Shown piece after piece: positions 2,943 to 34,977 of a DNA stretch of 39,241 nt. This stretch comes from Acidobacteriota bacterium. GTDB lineage: Bacteria > Acidobacteriota > Blastocatellia > RBC074. The notes under the pieces are model-generated. The model saw only the letters and a list, made by a program, of their open reading frames with translations. It was not told the DNA's origin and searched no databases. Numbering within the stretch: position 1 is the stretch's first letter; the number at the start of each line of letters is the position of its first letter. The DNA lies in the NCBI GenBank assembly GCA_016196035.1, contig JACPYM010000082.1:1-39241 (forward strand), written 5' to 3'. The translations under genes were made by a program, and so were the position numbers.

Positions 2943-5124
2943 TCCCGTCCGCTGGCAACGCATCAACGAGTTGTTTGCGCAGGCCGAAGACCTCGACGCC
3001 GACGCGCGCGCCGCCTTGCTCGCACAAGCCTGCGCTGACGACGACGGGTTGCGCGGCGAAGTCGAAGCCTTATTCAACGCTGATGCGCAAGCCGAGCGGG
3101 CCGATGATTTCCTGAGCGAACCCGCGCTCGAAGCCGCCGCCAAAAGCATGGCCGCGCAAGCCGCCGCGCTGCGCACCGGTCAAACGCTTAGCCACTATCG
3201 CATCGGCGCCTTGCTGGGGCGCGGCGGCATGGGCGAAGTCTATCGCGCCGAAGATCAACGCCTGGGCCGCACCATCGCGCTCAAATTGCTGCCGCCCGAA
3301 TTCACGCAAGACGACGAACGCGTCCAGCGTTTCAAACAGGAAGCGCGCGCCGCCTCTGCGCTCAACCATCCGAACATCATCACGATTTTTGAGATTGGCG
3401 AATTGGACGGGCTGCATTTCATCGCCACCGAATTCATTGACGGCAGCACGTTGCGCCAGCGTTTGAGCGAAGCGCCGTTGCCCTTGGCCGAAACGCTCGA
3501 CCTCGCCGCGCAACTCGCCAGCGCGCTGGCCGCGGCCCACGCCGCCGGCATCATTCACCGCGACATCAAACCCGAAAACGTGATGGTGCGGCCTGACGGC
3601 ATCGTCAAGGTATTGGATTTCGGCCTCGCCAAATTGAGCGAACAACATATTCCGCATTTCGCAATCCACCATCCGCAATTCCACACTGACCCCGGCAAGG
3701 TGTTGGGCACGCCGCGTTATATGTCGCCCGAGCAGATTCGCGGCGTCGAAGTGGATGCGCGTTCAGACCTCTTCAGCTTCGGCGTCGTGCTCTATGAAAT
3801 GCTCGTGGGCCGCGCGCCGTTCGAGGGCGCTTCGATTGCCGAAACGATTGCCGCGATTCTTGAACGCGAGCCGTTGCCGCTGCCCCAATCTGAAAATGAT
3901 GACAGCACCGAATTGCAGCAACTTGTTCAACGCGCATTGGCCAAAGACCGCGACGCGCGTTGGCCCAGCAGCCGCGAATTGCTGGCCGAATTGAAACGCC
4001 TGAAACTTGAACTGGATTTTGCCGCCCGGCACAAACCCGATACCGAAGAGCAAGCCACGCTGCCCCTCGCCGCCACGTTGCCGCCGGTTCAGCATTCGCA
4101 TCCTGCCGAATTGGAACCCGTAGGTGGCGCGGTGCCGCTGGCTTCGCGCTTTTACATCGTGCGTCCGACCGACGAAGAGTTCCGCGCGGCCATCGCCCGG
4201 CAAGACAGCATCGTCCTGCTCAAAGGCGCGCGGCAGGTCGGCAAGACTTCGCTGCTCGCGCGCGGCTTGCAACAGGCCCGCAGTGCCGGGGCCAAAGTCG
4301 TGCTGACCGATCTGCAAAAGCTGAGCGCCGATGAACTGGTTTCCGCCGAAGCCTTTTATCTCGCGCTGGCCGATCTGATCGCCGATCGACTCGACCTGGA
4401 CGTCGTGCCCGAAGACGTCTGGAATGCGCGGCGCGGCCCCAGCATCAATTTCGAGCGTTTCATCCGCCGCGAAGTACTCAGCAAAATCTCCGGCCATCTG
4501 GTTTGGGGCCTGGATGAGGTTGACCGTTTGTTTGCCTGCACGTTTGGCAGCGAAGTCTTTGGCCTCTTCCGCTCCTGGCACAACGAACGTTCGCTCGACC
4601 CTGATGGGCCGTGGCAACGGCTGACGCTGGCGATTGCCTATGCCACCGAAGCGCACCTGTTTATCAGCGACATGAACCAATCGCCCTTCAACGTCGGCAC
4701 GCGGCTGGCGCTCGATGATTTCAGCCTTGAACAAGTGGCCGAACTCAACACGCGTTACGGCGCACCCTTGCGCGACAATGCCGAAGTCGCGCGTTATGGC
4801 CGCCTGGTCAGCGGCCATCCTTATCTGGTGCGTTGCGGCTTGCAGGAAATGGTCAATCACCGTCGCACCCTCGCTGAACTTGAAACCATCGCCGACCACG
4901 CCGACGGTCCATTCGGCGATCACTTGCGCCGCATTGCCGCATCGCTGGAACAGGACGCCGAACTCAGCGCCGTCGTGCGCGGCGTCTTGCAAGGCAAACC
5001 CTGCCCGTCGCCCGAAAGCTTCTACCGTTTGCGCAGCGCCGGGTTGATTGCGGGTGATTCGGCGCGCGAGGCGCGTCCGCGTTGCCAGTTGTATGCGACT
5101 TATCTTGAGAAACGGTTGCTGTAG
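2932..5124 (+). CDS. Ser/Thr protein kinase fused to an AAA-like (STAND-type) NTPase domain
   Basis: The 730-residue protein starts at 2932 after a GGGAGG Shine-Dalgarno, overlapping the sigma gene. Residues 1-85 are the usual helical leader of kinases paired with this sigma group. The kinase domain (about 89-360) has the glycine loop GRGGMGEV, HRDIKPEN with catalytic D211, DFG at 229-231 and GTPRYMSPEQ. After a linker comes a P-loop NTPase of the AAA-like type (PF14516-like): Walker A GARQVGKTS at 432-440 and Walker B VWGLDEVD at 524-531. No membrane segment is visible, so it is probably cytoplasmic. Kinases of this context usually carry TPR, TolB or WD40 tails; an NTPase tail resembling the start of the next gene is unusual. 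It may phosphorylate the sigma factor or the neighbouring NTPase, which is inference. Confidence 0.9.
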   Translation: MKLDPVRWQRINELFAQAEDLDADARAALLAQACADDDGLRGEVEALFNADAQAERADDFLSEPALEAAAKSMAAQAAALRTGQTLSHYRIGALLGRGGMGEVYRAEDQRLGRTIALKLLPPEFTQDDERVQRFKQEARAASALNHPNIITIFEIGELDGLHFIATEFIDGSTLRQRLSEAPLPLAETLDLAAQLASALAAAHAAGIIHRDIKPENVMVRPDGIVKVLDFGLAKLSEQHIPHFAIHHPQFHTDPGKVLGTPRYMSPEQIRGVEVDARSDLFSFGVVLYEMLVGRAPFEGASIAETIAAILEREPLPLPQSENDDSTELQQLVQRALAKDRDARWPSSRELLAELKRLKLELDFAARHKPDTEEQATLPLAATLPPVQHSHPAELEPVGGAVPLASRFYIVRPTDEEFRAAIARQDSIVLLKGARQVGKTSLLARGLQQARSAGAKVVLTDLQKLSADELVSAEAFYLALADLIADRLDLDVVPEDVWNARRGPSINFERFIRREVLSKISGHLVWGLDEVDRLFACTFGSEVFGLFRSWHNERSLDPDGPWQRLTLAIAYATEAHLFISDMNQSPFNVGTRLALDDFSLEQVAELNTRYGAPLRDNAEVARYGRLVSGHPYLVRCGLQEMVNHRRTLAELETIADHADGPFGDHLRRIAASLEQDAELSAVVRGVLQGKPCPSPESFYRLRSAGLIAGDSAREARPRCQLYATYLEKRLL

Positions 5125-5140
5125 CCAACTGGCTTTAACG

Positions 5141-5304
5141 CCCTGAAAGGGCGCGATTCAATAGCCGTGGGCAACGCCCACGGAATGGTGCGCGTAAGCC
5201 CCCGACCCTGAAAGGGTCGCATCCGATTTGATATGCGGCCCTTTCAGGGCCGGAGTTTTTTGGTGTGCGCTCCGTGGGCGTTGCCCACGGCTATTGAATC
5301 GCGC
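5141..5304. repeat. compound palindromic element between the two NTPase genes
   Basis: Positions 5151-5184 and 5271-5304 are a perfect 34-bp inverted repeat. Each arm contains its own 8-bp hairpin (CCGTGGGCaacGCCCACGG). The palindromic word CCCTGAAAGGG or its complement lies outside at 5141-5151 and inside at 5206-5216 and 5239-5249, and recurs at 25760-25770. The element starts 16 nt after the kinase stop. A small GAGC/GCTC hairpin followed by eight T at 5336-5343 could act as a terminator. Confidence 0.85.
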
Positions 5305-5419
5305 CCCTTCGGGGCTGAGCAGAATGCTCTCAAGATTTTTTTTCATGCCCGTGTCACTTTCCAGCGCCCTTTCCCGCCTTACCCGGCGCAGGACAATCTG
5401 AATTTCTTCGGGAGGGCTT

Positions 5420-8400
5420 ATGACCGCAACAGCTTCGAGCAACCGCGCAACCAATCTCGCAACTAATCGCGCAACTAATCGCGCAACTAATCGCGCAACT
5501 GGCGAAACCGGTTTCTATGTCACCGGTGGAACGCTGCGCCGCGATGCGCCGTGTTATGTCGAACGCCGCGCTGATCAGGCGCTGTATGATGGGCTGTGGC
5601 AAGGGCAGTTCTGTTACGTGCTGACTTCGCGCCAGATGGGCAAGTCGAGCCTGATGGTGCGCACGGCGGCCCGGTTACGCGAAGCGGGCGCGCACGTCGT
5701 CGTGCTCGATCTGACCTCCATCGGCCAGAACCTGAATGCCGAGCAGTGGTACGACGGCTTGCTCAACCGCGTCGGGCGGCAGCTCGGCTTGGAAGACGAG
5801 TTGGAAGATTACTGGACGGAGCATCCGCGGCTGGGGCCGTTGCAACGCTGGATGTCGGCGCTGCACGAAGTCGTCTTGCCGCAACGCGCCGGACGCCTCG
5901 TCTTTTTCGTGGACGAGATTGACGCCGTGCGCAGCCTGCCGTTTTCGACCGACGAGTTTTTCGCCGCCATCCGCGAACTTTATAACCGCCGCACCGAAGA
6001 CCCCGAACTCGAACGCCTGACGTTCTGTTTGCTGGGCGTAGCCTCGCCCTCCGATTTGATCCGCGACACGCGCACGACGCCGTTCAATATCGGGCAGCGC
6101 ATCGAACTCAACGATTTCAACGACGCCGAAGCCGCGCCGCTCGCGCGTGGTTTGGGGCGTGACGACAAGACGGCCAACAAACTGTTGCAACGCATTTTGT
6201 ATTGGACGGGCGGGCATCCTTACCTGACGCAACGCCTCTGCCAGGCCACTGCCGAAGACGCGAATGTCAACGATGCCGCCGGGATTGATCGTTTGTGCGA
6301 AGAGTTGTTTTTCACGACGCGCGCCCGCGAACGCGACGACAACCTGTTGTTTGTCCGCGAACGTATGCTCAAGAGCGAAGCCGACCGCGCCGCGTTGTTG
6401 GACTTGTACAAAAAGCTGCGCGACAACCAGCGCGTCAAAGATGACGAAACGAATCCGCTCATCAGCGTGCTGCGCCTGTCGGGCATCACGCGCGTCGCCG
6501 AAGGGCTGCTTTACGTGCGCAACCGGATTTACTACCGCGTCTTTGACCGGGAATGGGTGCTGGCGAATTTGCCGGATGCCGAAGTGTTGCGGCAACGGGC
6601 GGCGTATCGGCGAGGGTTGTTGCGGGCGGCAGCGGTGGCGGCGGTGATTGTTGCAATCGTTGGCGGACTGGCTTTCACTGCGTTCAGACAACGCAATCGC
6701 GCAGTACAATCAGAACAAACAAATCGGCGGTTGCTTTACAACGCGCATATGAACGTGGCTGGGCAAGACTGGGAGGCGAGTAGCATAGATCGCCTGCGCG
6801 AGTTGCTAAATGGACACATTCCACAGTCAAAAGAAACAGATTTACGCGGGTTCGAGTGGTTTCATATGTGGCGGCTTTGCCATCGTGAAATCGCTACTTT
6901 GCTTCATACAAATGATGTCAACTCAGTAGCTTTCTCGCCGGATGGGAAGGTGCTAGCAACGGCAGATGGTGAGATGAACGTAAAAATTTGGGACCTTCTT
7001 ACTCAGAAGGAACTATTCACCCTGAAGGGCCATACCAAAGCTCCGTGGTCTCTCGCCTTTTCCCCCGACTCAAAGAGACTAGCTTCCGGAGGCTATGACA
7101 GGAGCATCAAGCTCTGGGATGTTTCAACGGGGAAGGAAGTAATTACTCTCAAAGGACACAAAGACCGAGTACACTCCCTAGTTTTTTTACCGGACGGGAA
7201 AAAGCTGGTTTCTGCCAGCAACGATAAGACGATCAAACTGTGGGATGTCACAACCGGACAGGAACTCCGTACATTCACAGCCAACATTGATGCCGTAGAA
7301 AGAATGTCTTTTTCGTCTGATGGTCAGCGGCTAGCCATCTCAGGGAATGACCGAACTGCAAGAGTCCTGGACGTTACGACGGAGCAGGAACTATTCATAA
7401 CTAAACCCAGTTCCCGCCCCGCTCACACCTGCGCGTTGTCTCCTGATGGAAAACGGTTGGCGTTAGGTGGTATCGGAGAGGTAAAAATATATGACTGTGC
7501 CTCCGGGCTGGAGTTGGTTAAGTTGGCACTTGATGCAAAGGAGATCGCTGTCTCTCTGGCGTTTTCTCCGGATGGGAAAAAGATCGCTGCAGGGCAGTAT
7601 GAAAATACAGTGAGGCTGTGGGATGCATTTACAGGAAAAGAATTGGCTACTTTCAAAGGGCATACCCAAAGTATTCATTCGGTAGCCTTTTCGCCGGATA
7701 GCAAACAACTGGCTTCGGCTAGCGCCGATTTCACAGCGAAACTTTGGAGCGTAGAAGCTGAACCGGAGCCACTCGTGTTGCCAAAGCAGGAAGCGGGGAT
7801 TAGCTCAGTTGTATTTTCGCCTGACGGAAAAAGGATGGCGGCTGGCATACAAGACCAGACGATAAAATTGTGGGATACAAATACGTGGCAGGAGTCGCTC
7901 ATCCTCAAAGGGCACACAGGTCGTGTCTATGGCGTCAGTATTTCACCTGATGGAAATAAGCTGGCTTCTACAGCTAGCGATAGCACTCTGAAGTTATGGT
8001 CATTGTCATCTGGTACTGCGCTCTTCTCAATCGCTTTGAAAAATGAGGAGACAGCGGCTGTGGCGTTTTCCCCAGATGGCAGAAAGATCGCAGCAGGTTA
8101 TGGCGAAGGAAAAGTTAAGGTTTGGGATACGAATTCCGGGCAAGAGTTACTTACACTCAGCGGCCATGTTCCGGGAGTCTTCATTTCTAAAATCGCTTTT
8201 TCACCTGATGGCAAAATGCTTGCTTCGTGCAGCTTTGATAAAAGCGTGATCTTGTGGGATTTAGTTGCAGGCCGTGAACTGCGAGCACTTCTGGGACACA
8301 AAGGTTATGTTCTTGATGTCGCGTTCTCTCCCGATGGCAGAACTTTGGCCTCTAGCAGCACTGATAGGAGTATCAAGCTGTGGGACGTGGCAAGTGGAAA

Positions 8401-8680
8401 AGAGCTACGTACGTTGAAAGGGCACACCAGCGAAGTCTGGACAATCGCATTTTCACCTGATGGGAAAAGGCTGGCGTCAGGCAGCCACGACCAAACGATC
8501 AAACTTTGGGATATGGATGCAGGACAGGAACTGATTACTCTGAAAGGTCATTCATCAATTGTTTTTGGAGTGGCATTTTCGCCCGACGGGAAAACTCTGG
8601 CATCTACAGGTTTCGACAAAACCATCCGCCTCTGGCGCGCGGCCACCGAAGCCGAAGTGCAGGCGCGGCGCGGGCAGTGA
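5420..8680 (+). CDS. AAA-like (STAND-type) NTPase with membrane segment and 14 WD40 repeats
   Basis: The 1086-residue protein starts at 5420 behind a GGAGG site. Residues 10-27 are a degenerate ATNR repeat encoded by a 12-bp tandem. The AAA-like domain (PF14516 type) has [13 protein letters not shown] with Walker A at about 69-77, Walker B FFVDEID near 161-167, and the [10 protein letters not shown] region. A hydrophobic segment lies at about 399-421. From about 503 to 1075 there are 14 WD40 repeats (AFSPDGK...LASGS...IKLWD), enough for two seven-bladed propellers, and the tail is [15 protein letters not shown]. Such proteins are thought to couple ligand sensing by the propeller to nucleotide-driven switching. 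Propeller DNA (about 6690-8630) is visibly less GC-rich than the NTPase part, then GC rises again at the last 20 codons, suggesting exchange of the repeat module. Confidence 0.9.
5449..5500 (+). repeat. 12-bp tandem repeat inside the NTPase-WD40 gene
   Basis: The unit AACTAATCGCGC occurs three times exactly (5461-5496), preceded by a variant copy at 5449-5460 and followed by a partial one. It keeps the frame and encodes an ATNR tetrapeptide array just after the start codon, ahead of the conserved domain. Copy number could vary between strains without breaking the gene. Confidence 0.9.
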
Positions 8681-23443: not shown

Positions 23444-23748
23444 GGCTATGGTTCATTGATACTCTTGGGCCAGGCGGAATTTCAGCCGCCGCCTAGCCCG
23501 TGCTTATGAGGCCGCGCTCAATTTGAAAATTCCTGTTGCAACGCCTTCGGCAACTTCGTATAGTCCGCCTCGCACGCCCCCGAAGCCTTGAGCGTGCCTG
23601 ATTCAGTTAGCCTTTGATTCAGTGACGAGAGACAAAGATTCGGCAGCAATTTCTCAACATTTAACTTCAACGGTTTTTTCGACATCGGTACGACGCGTAC
23701 TCAGTGCCCAACACGCTAAGCCTCGTTTTTCAAAGAAGGGAGTTCTGT
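23444..23748. other. 305-bp intergenic region between DUF4126 and DUF3857 genes
   Basis: No gene seen. A hairpin of about 10 bp with one mismatch at 23467-23477/23489-23499, without a clear T-run, may terminate the DUF4126 transcript. The rest probably holds the promoter of the DUF3857 pair; AAGGGAG ahead of 23749 is its ribosome binding site. Confidence 0.5.
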
Positions 23749-25725
23749 ATGAAACGCCAACTCTGGCCCGTCCGCCTGCTTTTGCTTTTTGCTGCGAGTT
23801 GCCTGCTCAACGCGCCAGCCTCGGCCCAGTGGAATCAATGGAAACCCATTGATCCGGCCCACGTCGCGCTGCCCGCGCCCACCATTGATAAAAGCGCCGA
23901 CGCCGAAGCCTTGTTTTGGGAGGTGTATGTCAACGACGCCAATCAGGACACGGAATACCTGCATTATTTGCGCGTCAAAATCTTTACCGAGCGCGGCAAG
24001 GAAACGCAGGGCAAAGTCGAATTGCCGTATTTCAACAACGTCCAAATCAAAGACATTACCGCGCGCACCATCAAACCTGACGGCACGATCATCGAATTGA
24101 AGAAAGACGCCATCTTTGACCGCGAAGTGGTGAAATTCGGCAAGTTCAAAATCAAGGTCAAATCCTTTGCCATGCCCGCCGTCGAACCCGGCGTCATCAT
24201 CGAATACCGCTGGCGCGAGGTGCGGCAGAACCAGATGGCCGACAACGTCCCGCTACAATTTCAGCGCGAAATTCCGGTGCAGAATGTCCGTTATTATCTG
24301 AAGCCTTATCCCTACGCGACGCAGCCCATGAAATCCATGACCTTTCAGACACGCGGCCAGATGAACAACTTCGTCAAAGCCAAAGATGGCTATTGGCTGA
24401 CCGAGATGAACAATGTGCCGGCCTTTCACGAAGAGCCGTATATGCCGCCTGAAAATCAGGTGCGCACCTGGATGCTGGTGTATTACGCCGCCGACCGCAA
24501 ACAGGCGCCGCAACAGTATTGGCAGGAAATCGGCAAGGTCTTTTACGAAGTCACCAAGGCCGATATGAAAGTCAATGACGAGGTGCGCAAGGCCGCCGCC
24601 GAAGCTATCGGCGACGCCGCTACGCCGGAACAGAAGCTGGAACGGCTGTTCAATTTCTGCCGCACCAAAATCAAAAATCTCAGCGATGACGCTTCCGGTT
24701 ACACGCCCGAACAACTGCAAAAACTCAAAGACAACAAATCACCCGCCGACACGTTGAAACGCGGCTACGGCTGGGGCAGCAACATCAACGGCCTGTTTGC
24801 GGCGTTGGCGACGGCGGCTGGGTTCGATGCCCGTTACGCCGTGACCAGCGACCGCAGCCGCAGCTTTTTCGACGCGAACTTTCTCAACCTCTATTTCATG
24901 CGCGGCTCGAATATCGCCGTGAAGGTCGGCGAGCAATGGCGCTTTTTCGATCCGGCCAGCACCTATGTGCCCTTTGGCATGTTGCGTTGGCAGGAAGAGG
25001 GCATCAAAACCCTGATCGCCGATAACAAGGAAGCCACCTTTGTGCCGACGCCGCTTTCGCCGCCCGAAAAATCGCTGAGCAAGCGCGTGGCCCGGCTCAA
25101 ATTGAATGAAGACGGCTCACTCGAAGGTGTGGTGCGCGTCGAATATACCGGGCACGCCGCCGTCGAGTTCAAAGAAGATTACGACGACGCCACGCCCGCG
25201 CAGCGCGAAGAAAAGCTCAAAAATGCTGTGCAGTCGCGCCTCGGTTGCGAGTTGTCCGAGATCAAGATCGAACCGCCCAACGATCCCGTCAAACCGTTTG
25301 TCTATTCGTACAAAATCAAAGCGCCCGGTTATGCCGAACGCACCGGCAAGCGCCTCTTCCTGCAACCGGCGTTTTTCCAGAAAGGCATCGCGCCGCTCTT
25401 TTCGACCAACACGCGCGAGCATGACATCTATTTTCACTATGCCTGGCTGGAACAGGATGACGTCGAAATCGAGTTGCCCGCTGGGTATGCGCTCGACAAT
25501 GCCGAAGCGCCCGCGTCTTTCCCCATCGGTGATTTTGGCAATTACAAAGTCACGCTGGGCCTGACAGCGGATCAGAAAATTCTGGTCTATCACCGCGACT
25601 TCAAATTCGGCGGACTGATTTTCCCCAAGAGCAATTACGCGCCGCTCAAACAGGCCTTTGACACGTTGCATCAACAAGACAATCACGCCATCACGCTCAA
25701 ACAGGGCGTGGCGGCGGTGAAATGA
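23749..25725 (+). CDS. DUF3857/transglutaminase-fold exported protein, catalytic residues missing
   Basis: The 658-residue protein has a signal peptide (cleavage near ASA-Q at about 25), a DUF3857 domain (about 45-230) and a transglutaminase-like domain (about 270-420), then a C-terminal beta domain of the DUF3858 sort. In the transglutaminase motif, where the next protein has YGDCKDK, this one reads YGWGSNI, so G343 replaces the cysteine. The following histidine region has no matching histidine, while FFDPAS is kept. It is therefore probably inactive as an enzyme and may bind peptides or pair with its neighbour. AAGGGAG precedes the ATG at 23749. It is first of a tandem pair separated by a palindrome. 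Confidence 0.88.
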   Translation: MKRQLWPVRLLLLFAASCLLNAPASAQWNQWKPIDPAHVALPAPTIDKSADAEALFWEVYVNDANQDTEYLHYLRVKIFTERGKETQGKVELPYFNNVQIKDITARTIKPDGTIIELKKDAIFDREVVKFGKFKIKVKSFAMPAVEPGVIIEYRWREVRQNQMADNVPLQFQREIPVQNVRYYLKPYPYATQPMKSMTFQTRGQMNNFVKAKDGYWLTEMNNVPAFHEEPYMPPENQVRTWMLVYYAADRKQAPQQYWQEIGKVFYEVTKADMKVNDEVRKAAAEAIGDAATPEQKLERLFNFCRTKIKNLSDDASGYTPEQLQKLKDNKSPADTLKRGYGWGSNINGLFAALATAAGFDARYAVTSDRSRSFFDANFLNLYFMRGSNIAVKVGEQWRFFDPASTYVPFGMLRWQEEGIKTLIADNKEATFVPTPLSPPEKSLSKRVARLKLNEDGSLEGVVRVEYTGHAAVEFKEDYDDATPAQREEKLKNAVQSRLGCELSEIKIEPPNDPVKPFVYSYKIKAPGYAERTGKRLFLQPAFFQKGIAPLFSTNTREHDIYFHYAWLEQDDVEIELPAGYALDNAEAPASFPIGDFGNYKVTLGLTADQKILVYHRDFKFGGLIFPKSNYAPLKQAFDTLHQQDNHAITLKQGVAAVK

Positions 25726-25850: not shown

Positions 25851-25915
25851 TAATTCAATGCCATTGCCCTACGAGGCGGCTTCGGAATTTTCAATGCTTG
25901 CCGGACGGGAAATTT

Positions 25916-27883
25916 ATGCGCAACAAATTTTGCTTTTGTCTCTTGGCGTTGCTCATTTGTAGCCGCGCAGCCATTGCCGCCAGCGATGATGTCCCCGCCT
26001 GGTTGCGGCAAGCGGCAGCCGTCACGCCGCCGGCCTATCCCAAAGAGGTCAAGGCCGTCGTCTTGCACGACGAGACGCGCAAGACGGTGGATGACGATGG
26101 GCGCATCACGACCTGGGATTATTACGCCGTGCGCATCCTCGCGCGCGATGGACGCGGCGAGGCCGTCGCGCGCGCCGGTTACACGACGGGTTCGGAAAAG
26201 ATAAAGGAAATGCGCGCCTGGCTGTTGCGTCCGGATGGCACAGTCAAAAACTATGGCAAGAAAGAAATGCTCGACCTGGCCGAAGTCGAGAACGACATTT
26301 ACAACGAATCGCGCGTGCGCGTGCTTTCAGCCAGCGCCGAGGCCGATACCGGCGCGGTTTTCGGCTACGAAATCAAGACCGAAGAGAAGACCATCTTCTC
26401 GCAATTTCGCAAAGCCTTTCAGTCGAACGTGCCTGTGTTGCTGGCGCGGCTCAACGTCACCTTGCCCAACGGCTGGCGCGCCGAGAGTCTGACCTTCAAC
26501 CACGCCAAGTTAGAGCCGGTAGTGAATGGCAATAGCTACACTTGGGAACTGACCAACCAGCCGCAGATCGAAGACGAACCGGCCAGCCCCAGTGCCTCCG
26601 CGCTGGTGACGCTGGTTGCGGTCAGTCTCTATGCGCCGCCCAACAAAACGACCATGCTGCGCGCGTTTGCCAGTTGGAAAGATGTCGCGCGTTACACCGC
26701 CGAATTGAGCGACCCGCAAGCGGCGTTCAACGATGCGATGGCGGCCAAGGCGCGCGAATTGACGGCCAATGCCAAAACTGAATTCGAGCGCATTCAGGCC
26801 ATCGGGCGCTATGCCCAAGCGGTCAATTACATCGCCGTCTCGATTGATGTCGGACGCGGTGGCGGCCATCGTCCGCACGCCGCCACCGATGTCTTCAGCA
26901 AAAACTATGGCGATTGCAAAGACAAAGCCAACCTGATGCGCGCGCTGCTCAAACCGCTCGGCATCGAGGCCTGGCCCGTGATCATTTATTCCGGCGACCC
27001 CACGTTTGTGCGCCCCGAATGGCCTACGCCGGGGCAGTTCAATCATTGCATCATCGCCGTCAAGGTGAGTGATGCGACCAACGCGCCGACCGTCATCAAA
27101 TACCCCGCGCTGGGGCGCTTGCTGATTTTCGATCCGACCGATGAGCAAACCCCGGTGGGCGATTTGCCCGATCACGAACAGGGAAGTTGGGCGCTGATTG
27201 GCGCGGGCGAACTCGGCGATCTGGTCAAAATGCCGGTCACCGCACCCGAGGCCAACAAACTCGAACGCACGGTCGAAGCCGCGCTCGACGCCAGCGGCAA
27301 CCTGACGGCCACCATCAAAGAGTCGTCATCGGGCCAAGCCGCCGTGGGTGAGCGCCGCCAATTCAAACATTATGCCCAGCCCGATTATCTGAAAATGACG
27401 GAACGTTGGATCACGCGCGGCGCGCCCGGCGCGGTGCTGAGCAAAGTCGCGCCCAATGATGACGCGCAGGCGGGCAAATTCGCGCTCGAAGTAGAATTCA
27501 AAGCCCCCGCCTATGCCAAAACCATGCGTGACAAGTTGATGGTCTTCAAACCCGCGCTTGTCTCGCGCCGCTCATCGCTCTTCCTGACCAAAGACAAACG
27601 CGCCTATCCGGTCGTGCTCGAATCGCAAGCCTACAGCGAAACCACGCGCATCCAATTGCCCGCCGGGTTTGAGGTGGACGAAATGCCCGAGGCCGTCGAA
27701 CTCAATCATCCCTTTGGCAACTACGCCATGACCTGCGAAGCGAAAGCCGGCCAATTGCTGTTCAAGCGCACCTTGATTCTGCGCGCGGGCACGATCCCGG
27801 TGGAGCAATACCCCGCCGTCCGCAGCTTTTTCGCCCGTGTGCTGGCGGCGGAACAAGCGCCGGTCGTGCTGGCGAAAAAGTGA
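25916..27883 (+). CDS. DUF3857 and transglutaminase-like exported protein, catalytic triad intact
   Basis: The 655-residue protein has a signal peptide (about 1-22), a DUF3857 domain (about 45-230), a transglutaminase-like domain and a C-terminal DUF3858-like domain. The papain-like triad is complete: C334 in YGDCKDKANL, H377 in FNHCIIAV, and D406 in IFDPTDE. It would cleave or join peptide bonds outside the cytoplasmic membrane; the substrate is not known for this family. It follows the related 658-residue gene, whose triad is lost, so the pair looks like an enzyme with a degenerate paralogue. The ATG at 25916 is preferred because the signal peptide starts there; an in-frame ATG at 25898 is possible. 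Confidence 0.9.
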   Translation: MRNKFCFCLLALLICSRAAIAASDDVPAWLRQAAAVTPPAYPKEVKAVVLHDETRKTVDDDGRITTWDYYAVRILARDGRGEAVARAGYTTGSEKIKEMRAWLLRPDGTVKNYGKKEMLDLAEVENDIYNESRVRVLSASAEADTGAVFGYEIKTEEKTIFSQFRKAFQSNVPVLLARLNVTLPNGWRAESLTFNHAKLEPVVNGNSYTWELTNQPQIEDEPASPSASALVTLVAVSLYAPPNKTTMLRAFASWKDVARYTAELSDPQAAFNDAMAAKARELTANAKTEFERIQAIGRYAQAVNYIAVSIDVGRGGGHRPHAATDVFSKNYGDCKDKANLMRALLKPLGIEAWPVIIYSGDPTFVRPEWPTPGQFNHCIIAVKVSDATNAPTVIKYPALGRLLIFDPTDEQTPVGDLPDHEQGSWALIGAGELGDLVKMPVTAPEANKLERTVEAALDASGNLTATIKESSSGQAAVGERRQFKHYAQPDYLKMTERWITRGAPGAVLSKVAPNDDAQAGKFALEVEFKAPAYAKTMRDKLMVFKPALVSRRSSLFLTKDKRAYPVVLESQAYSETTRIQLPAGFEVDEMPEAVELNHPFGNYAMTCEAKAGQLLFKRTLILRAGTIPVEQYPAVRSFFARVLAAEQAPVVLAKK

Positions 27884-28773: not shown

Positions 28774-29276
28774 GCCGTATTCTTATTGGGGAAAAGAAAG
28801 TTTCTCGCCAGGTTGCCAATATCCCTCAATGCCAGCCGTCTTAACACGGCGACACTCAGTGGAAACCCCGCGGCTGAGTGGCCGTTGGTGTAGGTGGCGC
28901 GCGCGGCACACAGACCGTTCGCGGGCCAGGGCTAGATTGCCGATTCGACGCAAATTGGCGGCTGTATTGTTCAGGCGTTCCCAGGTGCTGCCAGCAGTGT
29001 TGCAATTTCTCCCGCAAGCACGCGAGTGCTTTTCCTACCGTCCAGCTTCTGCCGAAATGAAAGCCGATCATCGTTCATTGGGCAGGACTCCTATGCCACA
29101 GACGCAGCGCGGCTGCGTAAGCGCAACTTGAGCGTTGTTCTTTCACTTCACACCAACAAATCCGGATCTGCTGCTAACCCAAAACTAATTGCATTGCTGC
29201 TGCACGCCGCAGGTAAGGCGCCCTTGGCAGGCACGGCATTGTTCGTAAAAAAAACGGCCTACCTTCAGGAGACCTT
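28774..29276. other. 503-bp intergenic region before the cytochrome gene
   Basis: I see no gene. An 11-bp hairpin with a 2-nt bulge lies at 28847-28884. The sequence before 29277 contains CAGGAG as the ribosome binding site. The long leader could hold the promoter, but no strong sigma-70 pair is apparent. Confidence 0.5.
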
Positions 29277-32200
29277 ATGAACATGACGCATCCGGCGGCC
29301 CGCTACACGCGTGGCCTCAAAAAGCTGTTGCTGCTAACTTTTTGTGTAGTCGTTGCCGTGGTTTTCAACCCGCCCTTAACGCGCCAGGCCGCCACAGCAC
29401 AATTGCCGACCTTGCTGTTTGTCACGCAACCGCCCTTTGGCTTGGACGCGACTTCGGTCAATGCCGTCAACGGCAATCATCGCGCCGACACGGGCCACAC
29501 GCCACGCGGCGGCGATCTGTATCTGCGGTTTGGCGACGGCTCGCTGCGCAATCTGACTGCCGAAGCGGGTTATGGATTGAGCGCCGGACAGGAAATCGCC
29601 GTGCGCGAACCGAGCGTGCATTGGTCGGGGGCGAAGGCGCTATTCTCGATGGTGGTGGGCGGCACGACGCCGGGCAACACCGCGCCGGTCTTTTGGCAAA
29701 TTTACGAAGTCACCAATCTGCTGCCGGGCCAGACGGCGCAAATCACCAAGCTGCCGCAACCCGCGAACAGCAACAATGTCTCGCCGATTTATGGCACCGA
29801 TGACCGCCTCATTTTCACGTCGGATCGCCCGCGCAATGGCAACTTCGCCAACTATCCCGCGCTCGATGAATATCAGGCCGAACAGACCAACACCGGTTTG
29901 TGGTCAATGGCCCCGGATGGCAGCGATTTGAAATTGCTCGATCATTCACCGTCGGGTGATTTCAGTCCGCTGATCGCGTCGGATGGCCGCCTGATTTTTA
30001 CGCGCTGGGATCATCTGCAACGCGACACGCAAAGCTCCAACGCTACACTCATCTCAAAAAACAATCCCTTCGATTATGTTTCAGAAGCCAGCACCCAACA
30101 GCTTCCGTTTGCCGACAGCTTTCCTGAACCGCTTACGCAACCCGCAGGCGCGTATCTGAAAGGACATCACTTCAGCCACTTCTTTCCGTGGCAGATCAAT
30201 GAGGACGGCACGAATCTGGAAACGCTCAATCACATCGGACGCCACGAACTCTTTCAAAGCTTCCCCGCGGCGCATCAAGGCCTGCCCGATTTCACCACTG
30301 CTGCCGGACGCCGCACCGCGATCATCTTGACGCAGTTGAAAGAAGACCCGAACAATCCGGGCTATTTTTACTGCACACAACCGCCCGATTTCGGCGGCCA
30401 TAATTCGGGGCAACTCATCGCGCTGAAGGGCGACGAAGCGACAAATGCCGACAATATGCAGGTGGATTACATCACCGATCCGCTCTCGCTGGCGTTTTAT
30501 TTGCCAGGTATTCAGACGCCACCCGCCAATCATCCCGGCCATTTCCGCAATGCGACGCCGCTCTCTGACGGCACGCTCATCGCGGTGCATTCCGATTCGC
30601 CGTACCGCGACAAGACCAACGGCGGGCCGCTCACTTCGCTTTACAACTTCCGCCTGGTGCAGATGCTGCCGGGCAATCCGTATTTCACCAAAGGCGCGCG
30701 CCTGCTCGCCAACGGCATCACGAAATCAATTTCGTATTGGGACAATTCGGTCGGTACAAGCGGGCAACAAGTGAGCTATAGCGGCCAACTCTGGGAACTC
30801 GATCCGGTCGAAGTGCGCCCGCGCGCCGTGCCGGTCAAACACAGCACCGCGCTGCCCGCCATCGAACAACAGATTTTGAGCGATGAACTCGGTGGACAGG
30901 CGGGCATTGATGCTTTTCAAAGCTACCTGCAAGCGCACAACCTCGCGCTCGTGGTCAGCCGCGATGTGACGCGCCGCGCCGACAAACAGCAGGATTACAA
31001 CCTGAAGATCGCGAACAGCGCGACGCAATCGGTCGAACCCGGCGCGGTGCCGCTCGATCTGGCGTTCATGCAATTTCTGCAAGCCGATCTGCTGCGCGGC
31101 TACAACGCCTTCAATGTCGGAGGCCGCCGCCCGATGCCGGTGATGATGCATGACGGCTTGTTGCCGGTGGCAGCGGGTGCTCCGCCGAGCAGCGTGCAAT
31201 TGGCGGGCGATGGCAGCATGGCCGCGCTCCTGCCGGCGCGCCGCGCAGTGACGTGGCAAATGCTGGGGCCGGACGGTTCGTCCGTTGTGAAAGAACGTTA
31301 CTGGGTGACGTTTGCGCCGGGCGAAATGCGTTCGTGCGCCAATTGCCACGGCATCAACCAAGCGGATGTCTTCGGTCAGCCGAAGCCGACCAATCCGCCG
31401 CAGGCTTTGCACGTGCTCGCGGCCTGGTACCGTGACAACATCAAAAACGCCGTGACCGCGCTCACCCCTGCGAATGCGAGCTTCGCCGCGAATGGCGGCG
31501 CGGGCACGGTCAACATCACGCCCGCCAACGTGGCGAATTGGCCTGCCGTGAGCAATACGAGTTGGCTGAACATCACCTCGGTCAACAGTTCGTCGGTGAG
31601 TTACACGGTGGCGAGCAATCCAACGAATGCCACGCGCATTGGCACGCTGAGCATCGCCTATCAAACCTTCACCGTCACGCAAGCGGGCATTGCGCCGCCG
31701 CCAACGCCGACACCAACCCCGTTGCCAACGCCAACGCCATTACCGTCGCCGTCGCCTTCACCGTCGCCACAAACATGCACCTTCACATTGTTGGGAGGCT
31801 TGTCCATTGTCGGCGCGAATGGCGGGGCGCTCAACGTTTCGGTTACAGCTAGCGGCGCGTGCGCGCGCACAGCCGTGAGCAACGTGCCGTGGCTGGTCGT
31901 CATCAGCGGCGCCAGCGGTGTGGGCAGCGGTACAGTCACGGTGCAAGCGGCGACCAATCCGACTTACAGCAATCGCACAGGCACCGTCACTATCGCGGGG
32001 CAAGTGCTGACCGTCATACAGTCGGGATTGAGCGGCGGCGCGTGTGATTACACCTTGACGAGCACCAGCCGCACCATTGCGGCAGCAGGCGGTACAAAAG
32101 GCCTGTCCGTCGTGACGGCGGCGGGTTGCCCGTGGACAAGCGTGAGCAACGTGCCGTGGATTACGGTCAATACGCCCAACTTGGTCGGCTTCAACACGGT

Positions 32201-32297
32201 GCAATTCACTATTGCCGTCAACAGCGGCGGCACGCGTATTGGCACGCTGACCGTGGCCGGTCAAACTTATACGGTGACCCAGACGGGCACACCGTAA
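29277..32297 (+). CDS. HzsA-like beta-propeller c-type cytochrome with three BACON domains
   Basis: The 1006-residue exported protein has a signal peptide (about 15-42). Residues 45-650 form a TolB/propeller-like region resembling the middle part of the hydrazine synthase alpha subunit (for example SPIYGTDDRLIFTSDRPR, LWSMAPDGSDLK, GHHFSHFFPWQINEDG). A single c-type heme site, CANCH, is at 687-691. Three BACON domains follow at about 725-800, 832-915 and 920-1005, the first two separated by a Pro/Thr/Ser linker. Hydrazine synthase carries two hemes per alpha chain; only one site is visible here, so hydrazine chemistry is unlikely and the match is structural. BACON domains suggest carbohydrate or surface attachment. 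It converges on the VIT/VWA gene. Confidence 0.82.
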   Translation: MNMTHPAARYTRGLKKLLLLTFCVVVAVVFNPPLTRQAATAQLPTLLFVTQPPFGLDATSVNAVNGNHRADTGHTPRGGDLYLRFGDGSLRNLTAEAGYGLSAGQEIAVREPSVHWSGAKALFSMVVGGTTPGNTAPVFWQIYEVTNLLPGQTAQITKLPQPANSNNVSPIYGTDDRLIFTSDRPRNGNFANYPALDEYQAEQTNTGLWSMAPDGSDLKLLDHSPSGDFSPLIASDGRLIFTRWDHLQRDTQSSNATLISKNNPFDYVSEASTQQLPFADSFPEPLTQPAGAYLKGHHFSHFFPWQINEDGTNLETLNHIGRHELFQSFPAAHQGLPDFTTAAGRRTAIILTQLKEDPNNPGYFYCTQPPDFGGHNSGQLIALKGDEATNADNMQVDYITDPLSLAFYLPGIQTPPANHPGHFRNATPLSDGTLIAVHSDSPYRDKTNGGPLTSLYNFRLVQMLPGNPYFTKGARLLANGITKSISYWDNSVGTSGQQVSYSGQLWELDPVEVRPRAVPVKHSTALPAIEQQILSDELGGQAGIDAFQSYLQAHNLALVVSRDVTRRADKQQDYNLKIANSATQSVEPGAVPLDLAFMQFLQADLLRGYNAFNVGGRRPMPVMMHDGLLPVAAGAPPSSVQLAGDGSMAALLPARRAVTWQMLGPDGSSVVKERYWVTFAPGEMRSCANCHGINQADVFGQPKPTNPPQALHVLAAWYRDNIKNAVTALTPANASFAANGGAGTVNITPANVANWPAVSNTSWLNITSVNSSSVSYTVASNPTNATRIGTLSIAYQTFTVTQAGIAPPPTPTPTPLPTPTPLPSPSPSPSPQTCTFTLLGGLSIVGANGGALNVSVTASGACARTAVSNVPWLVVISGASGVGSGTVTVQAATNPTYSNRTGTVTIAGQVLTVIQSGLSGGACDYTLTSTSRTIAAAGGTKGLSVVTAAGCPWTSVSNVPWITVNTPNLVGFNTVQFTIAVNSGGTRIGTLTVAGQTYTVTQTGTP

Positions 32298-32469: not shown

Positions 32470-34977
32470 TCAGAATTGAGGCGCGATGTAACGCACGCTG
32501 GCGAGTTCGGCCAGCGCCGCCAGCTTCTCCACCGGCAATCTGCCGATGAGAAATTTTGAGTTGGCTGGGTTGAGCACGATTTCAACGCCGAGCTTTTGCA
32601 ATTCGGCCAGCACCGCCGCCGATTTCTCGGTCAGGTGGATTTGCAGTTCAGCTTTGCCCGCGTGCACGAATTTGAGTTCGGCGGTGGCGGCTTGTATGGA
32701 ACTGGTTTGCAACCGTACCAGCAAGGCTGCGATGGCCGGGTGCAGTTTGGCGTTGTGCCGCGGGTCTTTTGTCATAGGATGCGGCGGTTCAGGCGACGGT
32801 GATGTTGCCACCGTAGCGTTAGTGGCTGGCCGATTGGGCAGATAGACATTCCCAATATTTCGTTCGTGAAGCCCCATTATTGCCTGTTTTTCGTCCTTAG
32901 CAGTGTCCAGATCGAAGAATGAACCGGCAAAGCCTGAAATGCCGCCGTTGACGCTGATAGTTTGGCGTCCTTTTTCTTTCAACTGAGCATCAATATCCAC
33001 TACTTCACCGGACAAGCCTTTGCGGCTCACACCCTCCGGCAATTCCACCGGCACATCCACCCGGCGCGGCACGCCGCCTTCCGTCACCATCGTCTCTTCG
33101 ACCGCGACAAACGAAGTGAATTGCGTCAGCAGCCGGAAATCCAGGCCGAGTTGCGTGATGGCCTCGCGCACTTCGGGTTTGGCGTTGCCGTTTTGCAAGC
33201 CCTGAAAATCTTCGCTCATCAGCCGGTCAATGCGCGTGCATGCCCAAAGCGTCGCTAGCACGTCGTGTTCCGGCTGTTGGTCGGGCAGTTCGATTTGCAG
33301 TTCGCGCACGAATGGCTGACCCGCTAGCTTGCCACGCAAGCGCACGGTACCGCGCGCGCCTTGGGTGTAGCGGCCCGTCAAAATCAACGGCTTTGCGCTG
33401 AACAAATCGGGAATGCGTTGCGGATAAACATCCGTCACCGGCAAGCCGCCCCAATCGAGTTCGATGTCGGTCAGCAGCGGGTTGCGCACCCTTTCGTGAA
33501 AGCGTTTGGCCGCCGCCGAACCATCGTCTTGCAAGCTGACGTATTCGACCTCGCCGCGCCCGTGTTCAGCCATTTTGTCGAGCAGGAAGCGATTCACCGA
33601 CGAGCCGATGCCGAAGGAAAAGACGCGCGCGTTCGGATGCTTTTGCACTTCGCCGATGATCTCGAAATCGTTGCCGACATAACCGTCGGTGATGAAACAC
33701 ACGATGCGCAGGTGGTCTTGCTTGTCGCTGGGGTCAAGCGCCGCGCGAATGGCTTTCATCATCTCGGTGCCGCCGCTGCCTTCGCGCGTTTCCAAAAAGG
33801 CCTGGGCTTTGGCGAGATTCGCGCGCGTGGCGGCGACGGGTTCGGGAAACAGGATGTGCGTGTCGCCGGAAAACGTGATTAGGTTGAAGGTGTCTTGCGG
33901 ATAGAGCGCGTCGAGGGCCAGCCGCATCGTCTCTTTGGCTTTCTCAAGCGGGAAGCCGCTCATCGAACCCGAGGTGTCGAGCACGAAGACCAATTCTTTC
34001 GGCGTGACATCCTTGGCCGTCACGCGCTCCGGCGGTTGCAACAGCAGTGAGAAGAAACCACCCGCGTTGCGTCGATGCGCCAGCAGCGCGTCATTGATCT
34101 TTTGGCCCGCGACATCGAATTTGAGAATGAAATCTTTGTTGGGAATCGTTTGCTGATTGCGCAAGCGCACGTTGGCGTGGTTGGGGGCCGGGCGCTCGAT
34201 GTCCACTTCGTGCAAGGTGGATTTCAAACTGTCGAGTGGCACGCCCGTGTCCACGTTGACCGAAATTGAAATGTCGTGCCCGGCGCGCGTGCCTTCAGGC
34301 GTAACGGGCGGCGTGATGCGCGAGGCGTCAGGAACTTCGGAAGTATCAGGCGCGGCTTGCGGATTCGGTTGCGCCAGGGGCTGACCCGGAATGTAGCGCG
34401 GGCCGACGACCATCGGGAAGACGAATTCATACGTGCCTTCTGCGTATTTCAAAAACTCCACGTAACTGATCGTCACCTTGACCGTTGCGCCAGGCAAGAT
34501 GTTGGCGACGGCCTGGGTGAAGATGTTCGGACGTTCTTGATCGAGCAGGCTGGCGATCTGGCCGGCGTTGCGCGCGGCTTCGTAAACGGCGCGCGCTTCT
34601 TCGCGGCGTTTGATCTGGCCTTTGATGGTGCGTTCGCCGATGCGCATGGTCATATCGTCTACGGCGGCGTTTTGCGGCAGAGGGAAGACGTAAACGGCTT
34701 CGATCTTGTCGCTGTAGGGATTGTGGAATTCCTGGGTGACGGTGACGCGCGCCAGCGAACCGGTGACGCTGGCTTGCACGTCGGTGTGTTTGAGCGGACA
34801 CGCGCCGCGCGCCTGGCCCGTGCTGTCGAGCGCTTGCAACGCGCCTTGCGTAACTTTGCCGGGGGCGGCGGCGGTCGTGCCGGGATCGTTAAAGGGCAGC
34901 AGTTCGGGCAGGCATAAATAGCCGCACAGAAACAGCGCCAAAGTGCAGAGCAGGGAAGTCGCAATACGTCGTTTCAT
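32470..34977 (-). CDS. VIT and VWA domain exported protein
   Basis: The 835-residue protein has an N-terminal membrane or signal segment (about 6-24). A VIT domain (about 60-190) includes VTVTQEFHNPYSDKIEAVYV and RREEARAVYE, and a VWA domain (about 325-500) has an intact MIDAS, DTSGSMSG near 333-340. A C-terminal region of about 300 residues follows. The order matches inter-alpha-trypsin inhibitor heavy-chain-like proteins of bacteria, which bind ligands or metal at the surface. AAGGAG precedes the ATG at 34977. The stop codon abuts a palindromic element. It is divergent from ndk across 386 bp. Confidence 0.9.
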   Translation of the reverse strand: MKRRIATSLLCTLALFLCGYLCLPELLPFNDPGTTAAAPGKVTQGALQALDSTGQARGACPLKHTDVQASVTGSLARVTVTQEFHNPYSDKIEAVYVFPLPQNAAVDDMTMRIGERTIKGQIKRREEARAVYEAARNAGQIASLLDQERPNIFTQAVANILPGATVKVTISYVEFLKYAEGTYEFVFPMVVGPRYIPGQPLAQPNPQAAPDTSEVPDASRITPPVTPEGTRAGHDISISVNVDTGVPLDSLKSTLHEVDIERPAPNHANVRLRNQQTIPNKDFILKFDVAGQKINDALLAHRRNAGGFFSLLLQPPERVTAKDVTPKELVFVLDTSGSMSGFPLEKAKETMRLALDALYPQDTFNLITFSGDTHILFPEPVAATRANLAKAQAFLETREGSGGTEMMKAIRAALDPSDKQDHLRIVCFITDGYVGNDFEIIGEVQKHPNARVFSFGIGSSVNRFLLDKMAEHGRGEVEYVSLQDDGSAAAKRFHERVRNPLLTDIELDWGGLPVTDVYPQRIPDLFSAKPLILTGRYTQGARGTVRLRGKLAGQPFVRELQIELPDQQPEHDVLATLWACTRIDRLMSEDFQGLQNGNAKPEVREAITQLGLDFRLLTQFTSFVAVEETMVTEGGVPRRVDVPVELPEGVSRKGLSGEVVDIDAQLKEKGRQTISVNGGISGFAGSFFDLDTAKDEKQAIMGLHERNIGNVYLPNRPATNATVATSPSPEPPHPMTKDPRHNAKLHPAIAALLVRLQTSSIQAATAELKFVHAGKAELQIHLTEKSAAVLAELQKLGVEIVLNPANSKFLIGRLPVEKLAALAELASVRYIAPQF

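Follow-up and report, generated by a model that had tools for sequence, protein, structure and literature searches.

A single-heme relative of the hydrazine synthase alpha subunit with exchangeable surface modules in an Acidobacteriota bacterium

What does a relative of hydrazine synthase, the enzyme of anaerobic ammonium oxidation (anammox), do in a bacterium that is not an anammox bacterium? To our knowledge, hydrazine synthase has been regarded as an enzyme with almost no relatives, and the question is raised by a 39,241-nucleotide stretch of DNA from an Acidobacteriota bacterium (GenBank assembly GCA_016196035.1, contig JACPYM010000082.1, positions 1 to 39,241 of the forward strand), the whole of which is called the window hereafter. 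At 29277-32297 on the forward strand, the window carries an open reading frame (ORF) for a single-heme HzsA-like protein of 1006 aa, in which a propeller and a heme-alphaI domain are followed by BACON domains. A sequence-only reading of this DNA had placed such a protein outside anammox bacteria, and this is right with respect to the host, which belongs to the same class as bins named Blastocatellia, Acidobacteriota. The organism is a soil-type bacterium, and the protein is probably secreted. Computation establishes that the window protein is homologous to the hydrazine synthase subunit HzsA and shares its fold, that the propeller and the heme-alphaI domain are retained while heme alphaII is gone, and that its family combines one heme motif with swapped surface modules and has no neighbouring partner in the loci examined.

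The heme domain gives the most direct sign of this homology. The Pfam family HZS_alpha (PF18582) matches residues 640-691 of the window protein (E 4.9e-8, 33.8 bits against a cut-off of 26.6) and was found at E <= 0.001 in all 81 family sequences scanned, with at least one member, L068, falling just below the cut-off when its whole protein is scanned (24.7 bits). Since all 81 members match, and C687, C690 and H691 are invariant in the core alignment (A4, 681 residues, 85 rows), the match of the window protein is not due to chance. The PF18582 profile terminates on CxxCH, so the matched domain is the heme-alphaI (middle) domain, which is preceded by the propeller (about residues 42-516). The earlier description of a propeller resembling the middle of HzsA was thus correct in seeing an HzsA-like propeller, while the middle domain of HzsA is the heme-alphaI domain. 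As well, PD40 propeller repeats reach only E 0.0028 in the window protein, below their own cut-off, and the HZS_alpha match, the profile chain, the fold search and the model together point to HzsA and not merely to generic propeller repeats.

The heme site itself is the CANCH motif at residues 687-691, which is the only CxxCH in the window protein; none was found in the other window ORFs of at least 100 aa. The invariance of its two Cys and its His among the aligned rows provides motif-level evidence of a heme site. A scan of one genome per species yielded 280 relatives, the best 80 of which were retained, and exactly one CxxCH is present in each of these 80, followed by G-x-N in 73. According to profile alignments, CANCH corresponds to Cys583, Cys586 and His587 of HzsA at heme alphaI (HzsA numbering being the 5c2v chain residue plus 27). 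A second CxxCH, as expected for the heme alphaII site, occurs neither in the window protein nor in any of the 80 relatives. The single CANCH site and the three BACON domains noticed in the sequence-only reading were both recovered, the latter by Pfam (PF13004, E 1.3e-13, 51.1 bits against a cut-off of 25, three stretches).

The predicted fold extends the relationship over the whole core. An AlphaFold2 model of residues 42-722 (model residues 1-681), built from the 85-row core alignment, reached a mean predicted local distance difference test score (pLDDT) of 92.8 and a predicted template modelling score (pTM) of 0.93, and an earlier prediction from 10 sequences, with a pLDDT of 55, was set aside. 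The top Foldseek match of the model in the PDB was HzsA (5c2v, E 1.7e-17), followed by the S9 peptidase family (2.2e-7). VIA-align placed model residues 1-681 onto HzsA 55-613 with Z 23.7 and a root-mean-square deviation of 3.2 over 460 aligned residues, and TolB came second (Z 20.3, 256 residues), covering the propeller only (model residues 1-475). Among the structure matches listed, HzsA alone spans to the end of the model, whereas the others stop at or before residue 616 with fewer than 280 residues aligned. The structural match ends at HzsA 613, ahead of the C-terminal heme-alphaII domain, the place of which is occupied by the BACON domains.

By sequence, HzsA is reached through intermediates. 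The profile of the window family aligns with that of HzsA-like acidobacterial cousins (alignment A5) over 431 columns in hhalign (probability 99.8, E 1e-28), and the cousin alignment in turn reaches 5c2v at E 1.9e-68; a mixed alignment including the window protein reaches it at E 2.2e-29. A direct PDB sequence search with the single window protein did not reach HzsA. Likewise, the NCBIfam model NF052339 (hydrazine_alpha, cut-off 800 bits) matched neither the window protein nor its core, and of three other members scanned only L140 gave a weak match (E 0.0012, 16.8 bits).

Although the heme motif is retained, the surroundings of heme alphaI differ from those of HzsA. According to PMC12758564 and PMC12607021, the iron of heme alphaI is coordinated by Tyr591, and His587 binds Zn; the former source names Cys303 as the other Zn ligand and reports that it is also absent from Scalinduaceae. 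In the window protein, position +4 from the heme His, which corresponds to Tyr591, is Q695, and it is mostly T, S or R in the relatives. Because this Tyr is missing, H691 is most likely the proximal iron ligand, as in ordinary cytochrome c; a proximal His was also inferred for a Syntrophobacter fumaroxidans homologue in PMC12758564. No widely conserved Cys other than C687 and C690 was found in the 85 rows, and there is consequently no equivalent of Cys303. By both alignment paths, via the cousins and via the mixed profile, Cys303 maps inside the segment NHIGRHE, where H319 is kept in 85 rows, R322 in 83, H323 in 80 and E324 in 83. This NHxGRHE loop probably lines the heme pocket. In total, at least 80 of the 85 rows agree at 68 positions with charged, polar, aromatic, Cys or His residues.

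To look for the partner subunits, every ORF of the 80 loci was compared by BLAST with eleven queries of the beta-gamma type. No diheme beta-gamma-like protein was found in these loci, the flanks of which are often short, or in the window, and only one short propeller match appeared (L086), in agreement with the earlier remark that no partner subunits are seen. As a positive control, the same queries recovered a beta-gamma-like protein in 7 of 19 cousin loci with flanks of only 1.5 kb. When 396 acidobacterial genomes were searched with two candidates scored per genome, a beta-gamma-like match was found no more than 3.5 kb away from 16 of the 20 HzsA-like proteins that match PF18582 most strongly, but not even on the same contig for any of the 24 window-family members (22 genomes). 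The occurrence of a beta-gamma gene beside HzsA-like homologues agrees with what PMC12758564 reports, and its presence beside the cousins and not beside the family sets the two apart. Separately, a 1086-aa ORF at window 5420-8680 has weak matches to the beta-gamma queries (best E 7e-7) and no CxxCH, and is probably an unrelated propeller protein.

The regions on either side of the core are variable. In 31 of the 80 relatives the protein ends within 57 residues past the heme site, while 49 carry tails of 89-578 residues (one of them, L073, cut by a contig end). These 49 and the tail of the window protein, 50 in all, fall into 19 clusters by BLAST and include fn3 (7), type IX secretion system (T9SS) sorting (6 by Pfam, 7 by NCBIfam), BACON (4), carboxypeptidase-regulatory (4), dockerin (4), TIG (3), FG-GAP (2) and Soli_cterm (2) domains as well as PKD, Calx-beta and others. 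N-terminal extensions of more than 110 residues are present in 16 of 80 relatives, some perhaps reflecting a wrong start, and seven of eight scanned contain PKD, Big, He_PIG, InlB-repeat or I-set domains over the Pfam cut-off. Explaining the tail states on the tree of the core takes 27 changes or more. The four BACON rows lie dispersed among the others on this tree, but for BACON no more than two changes are forced by branches with good support. Thus, the core is what stays constant among members, while the surface modules are swapped. BACON, found in 4 of the 50 tails scanned, is therefore incidental, as one of many interchangeable add-ons.

In hydrazine synthase, the beta-gamma subunits feed hydroxylamine to alphaI. 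Hydrazine synthase function is unlikely for the window protein, because heme alphaII and a neighbouring beta-gamma partner are absent; with one heme, without a relay heme and with no partner encoded nearby, its reaction would seem to be self-contained. With moderate confidence, we favour a secreted, surface-anchored single-heme oxidoreductase which is self-contained and not a hydrazine synthase. The previous suggestion of a surface redox or substrate-binding protein derived from the same propeller was apt in that a surface redox role is likely, and too narrow in that the heme domain was kept as well as the propeller. In the oxidoreductase that we infer, the HzsA-type propeller and the heme-alphaI domain would act as one catalytic unit forming the heme chamber, one heme c would be bound through CANCH with His691 as the proximal ligand, and the NHxGRHE loop would take the place of the Zn-ligand loop of HzsA. 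The BACON or other immunoglobulin (Ig)-like modules may serve as anchors on the cell surface or on a matrix polymer. As for the chemistry, our guess is that small diffusible oxidants or donors react at a single open heme, in chemistry of peroxide or N-oxide type, or that a bound polymer is oxidised.

A credible though unlikely alternative is a monoheme electron-transfer protein, in which the heme would only carry electrons between a partner at the surface and a cytochrome in the periplasm, with the propeller as a docking platform. The possession of one heme and a genome with several other c-type heme proteins (seven CCP_MauG, as well as PSCyt1/PSCyt2/PSD1 proteins near the second family copy, on contig C31) are compatible with this role; however, the strong conservation of one fold and of propeller residues far from CxxCH in sequence exceeds the needs of a carrier, and there is no conserved redox neighbour. 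We regard as decidedly doubtful the further proposal of a secreted, partner-free family with a rebuilt heme-alphaI chamber, in which the proximal Tyr is lost and the invariant His loop NHxGRHE, having replaced the Zn-cysteine loop, holds a second metal or acts as a distal base for N-oxide or peroxide chemistry at cell surfaces. If true, it would show the role of the HzsA fold outside the anammox enzyme.

It is quite improbable that the protein is a binding protein or adhesin, the heme of which is structural, sensory or vestigial while the actual function lies with BACON and other Ig-like domains. The BACON, fn3, PKD, TIG, InlB-repeat and T9SS sorting modules of the family would suit such a function, but 23 of the 31 relatives without a long tail are also without an N-terminal extension of more than 110 residues (two are 5'-cut), and the CxxCH is kept in every aligned row. 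That it is a true alpha subunit of an unrecognised anammox-like system is barely conceivable. In its favour, the fold and the heme alphaI domain are the same, and a copper-oxidase fusion encoded at another place in the genome contains a beta-gamma-like part. Against it, Tyr591 at +4, a conserved Cys beyond the heme pair, heme alphaII, an adjacent beta-gamma gene and a hydrazine_alpha match of the window protein are all missing, and the family is also carried by ordinary isolates, for example Tahibacter harae and Parachitinimonas caeni.

Several points weigh against the single-heme oxidoreductase that we favour. The family profiles and the heme-domain profile alone fail to reach 5c2v by sequence, and the residue mapping onto HzsA depends on intermediates because the family profile alone misses this structure. 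The predicted model holds no heme, towards which the NHxGRHE loop would presumably face; heme binding and activity are predictions from sequence and model, and the same picture is also compatible with a heme protein for binding or electron transfer. Flanks are short in many loci, reaching at least 3 kb on both sides in 46 of 80. Moreover, an unlinked partner may exist, since the genome holds a beta-gamma-like part in a 2290-aa fusion on contig C123, which was missed by the genome-wide beta-gamma search with its two candidates per genome. Gene-neighbour clustering around the 80 loci gave no conserved partner pointing to a substrate, the top clusters being regulator and kinase families.

The family is widely distributed. 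By record label, the best 80 of the 280 relatives are spread over 15 phyla, of which Acidobacteriota (27), Verrucomicrobiota (18) and Myxococcota (8) have the most members; four relatives are unplaced, and some labels come from single metagenome bins. Members are present in the isolates Tahibacter harae, Parachitinimonas caeni and Sulfidibacter corallicola, and none was found in viral contigs or on plasmids. The family occurs in 22 of the 396 Acidobacteriota genomes (E <= 1e-60) and any PF18582 match in 46, with PF18582 in 10 of 162 genomes of the window's class. The window's own genome has two family copies, one in the window (contig C82) and one on C31, together with one two-CxxCH cousin on C131. 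In a Pedosphaera locus (L085:1810-6751), more family-like ORFs lie directly downstream (4271-5527 and 5570-6751), forming a broken or incomplete tandem array. The member L075, on a bin labelled Klebsiella pneumoniae, groups with a Deltaproteobacteria bin, and its label is probably an error in binning or naming.

Other heme proteins were also identified in this genome, which has a cytochrome c assembly gene (PF01578). None of the seven CCP_MauG matches is on C82, C31 or C131. An own-genome MauG protein was considered as the missing gamma partner and rejected, because none is on the family or cousin contigs and the beta-gamma-like one is part of the copper-oxidase fusion of C123. This fusion (L154:1270-8142) comprises a GlxA-like radical copper oxidase (NF052501, E 6.2e-43), Ig/PKD domains, a YVTN propeller, a MauG-type diheme part and BACON, and its diheme part matches the NCBIfam hydrazine synthase beta-gamma fusion model at E 1.7e-21, far under the cut-off. 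A related genome (L177:2298-7751) has the oxidase, propeller and diheme parts in the same order (E 8.9e-45 and 2.3e-24). The diheme part might use peroxide that the oxidase generates. The C31 paralogue (L009:7134-10016) is flanked, at about 1.2 and 2.8 kb, by PSCyt1/PSCyt2/PSD1 (DUF1549/DUF1553) cytochrome proteins (L009:2720-5899 and L009:12858-15794). The C131 cousin (L008:6455-10117) has two CxxCH motifs (CGGCH and CATCH, 69 residues apart), a Soli_cterm tail and a weak NF052339 match (E 6e-15). A MauG protein (L151:3064-5730) shares about 210 residues at 50-56% identity with the Soli_cterm-tailed members L066 and L069, and this tail module thus travels between heme proteins of different kinds. 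A hydroxylamine oxidoreductase (HAO)-type profile, PF13447, had no match in the genome, and none in the control either.

The features of the gene are collected in Table 1. Upstream of it are two tandem DUF3857/transglutaminase-like proteins (window 23704-25725 and 25898-27883), and downstream, on the opposite strand, a VIT/VWA protein (window 32470-34977); no functional link of these neighbours to the HzsA-like gene was seen.

Table 1. Features of the HzsA-like gene, in window positions.
Feature	Position	Strand	Basis
Ribosome-binding-site-like AGGAG, 5 bases upstream of ATG 29277	29267..29271	+	Sequence
Gene, 1006-aa single-heme HzsA-like protein	29277..32297	+	ORF and Pfam
Signal-peptide-like N-terminal segment, residues 1-41: basic RGLKK, then LLLLTFCVVVAVVF	29277..29399	+	By eye from sequence
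TolB/HzsA-type beta-propeller, about residues 42-516, six-bladed by homology	29400..30824	+	Model, TolB alignment, profile chain
NHIGRHE loop, residues 318-324	30228..30248	+	Alignment conservation; profile paths to HzsA
HzsA-type middle domain (heme alphaI domain), about residues 517-722	30825..31442	+	Pfam, model, structure alignment
Pfam HZS_alpha PF18582 match, residues 640-691, profile 46-97 of 98	31194..31349	+	Pfam scan
Sole heme c motif C687-A-N-C690-H691	31335..31349	+	Sequence; profile alignments
BACON domain 1, residues 730-803	31464..31685	+	Pfam
Pro/Thr/Ser linker (PTPTP...SPSPSP), residues 806-832	31692..31772	+	Sequence
BACON domain 2, about residues 834-917	31776..32027	+	Pfam (3 stretches); bounds judged from repeat
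BACON domain 3, about residues 923-1006	32043..32294	+	Pfam (3 stretches); bounds judged from repeat

HzsA homologues outside anammox bacteria are already in print, as clades I-III of Hagglund et al. 2025 (PMC12758564), with Paludibaculum fermentans in clade I, and that paper, which studied alpha homologues lying beside beta-gamma genes, reports that none of the top structural matches has another function confirmed by experiment. Hydrazine-synthase-like enzymes were also proposed as a broader family with other substrates in PMC10732223, and PMC10423856 has a table row for hzsA. No description of the partner-free, single-heme, module-swapping branch was found in a literature search made mostly without subscription papers. 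Being present in named isolates, this single-heme branch without neighbouring partners is a simple, testable model for the heme-alphaI fold alone and bears on where the anammox enzyme came from. It also means that an HZS_alpha annotation does not imply anammox.

Compared with known systems, the window protein resembles HzsA of Kuenenia stuttgartiensis (PDB 5C2V, 55-613) in its propeller and heme-alphaI domain, the position of CxxCH and the motif DGS...Q...G...W...R.C..CH. Unlike HzsA, it is without the Tyr591 ligand, Cys303, the C-terminal heme alphaII domain and an adjacent beta-gamma gene, whereas the motifs WDHLQRD, NHxGRHE, TRxADxQQ and GRR and the added BACON or other surface modules belong to the window family and not to HzsA. 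Clades I-III of PMC12758564 share with the window family the heme alphaI site and the missing Tyr591 region, and clades II and III are also without heme alphaII. However, these clades were chosen for an adjoining beta-gamma homologue and have an FG-GAP gene nearby, while the window family has no beta-gamma neighbour and FG-GAP is a fused tail in a few members; general neighbour clustering, which included no profile search aimed at FG-GAP, gave no such cluster. The HzsA-like Acidobacteriota cousins (CIGCHED/CVGCHTGP type, mostly 470-710 aa) have PF18582, the propeller and the heme alphaI motif in common with the window family, but they are far closer to HzsA. PF18582 and the propeller are also shared by the two-CxxCH cousins (CGGCH...CxxCH, 1072-1260 aa, six complete ORFs), which have their second CxxCH 69 residues downstream in the copies read, are only weakly similar to the window family (hmmsearch E 1.4e-9 to 6e-4) and, in the C131 copy, likewise bear a surface tail. 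BACON domains, finally, are mostly known from Bacteroidota proteins related to carbohydrates; in the window protein three BACON stretches are fused to a heme-motif protein.

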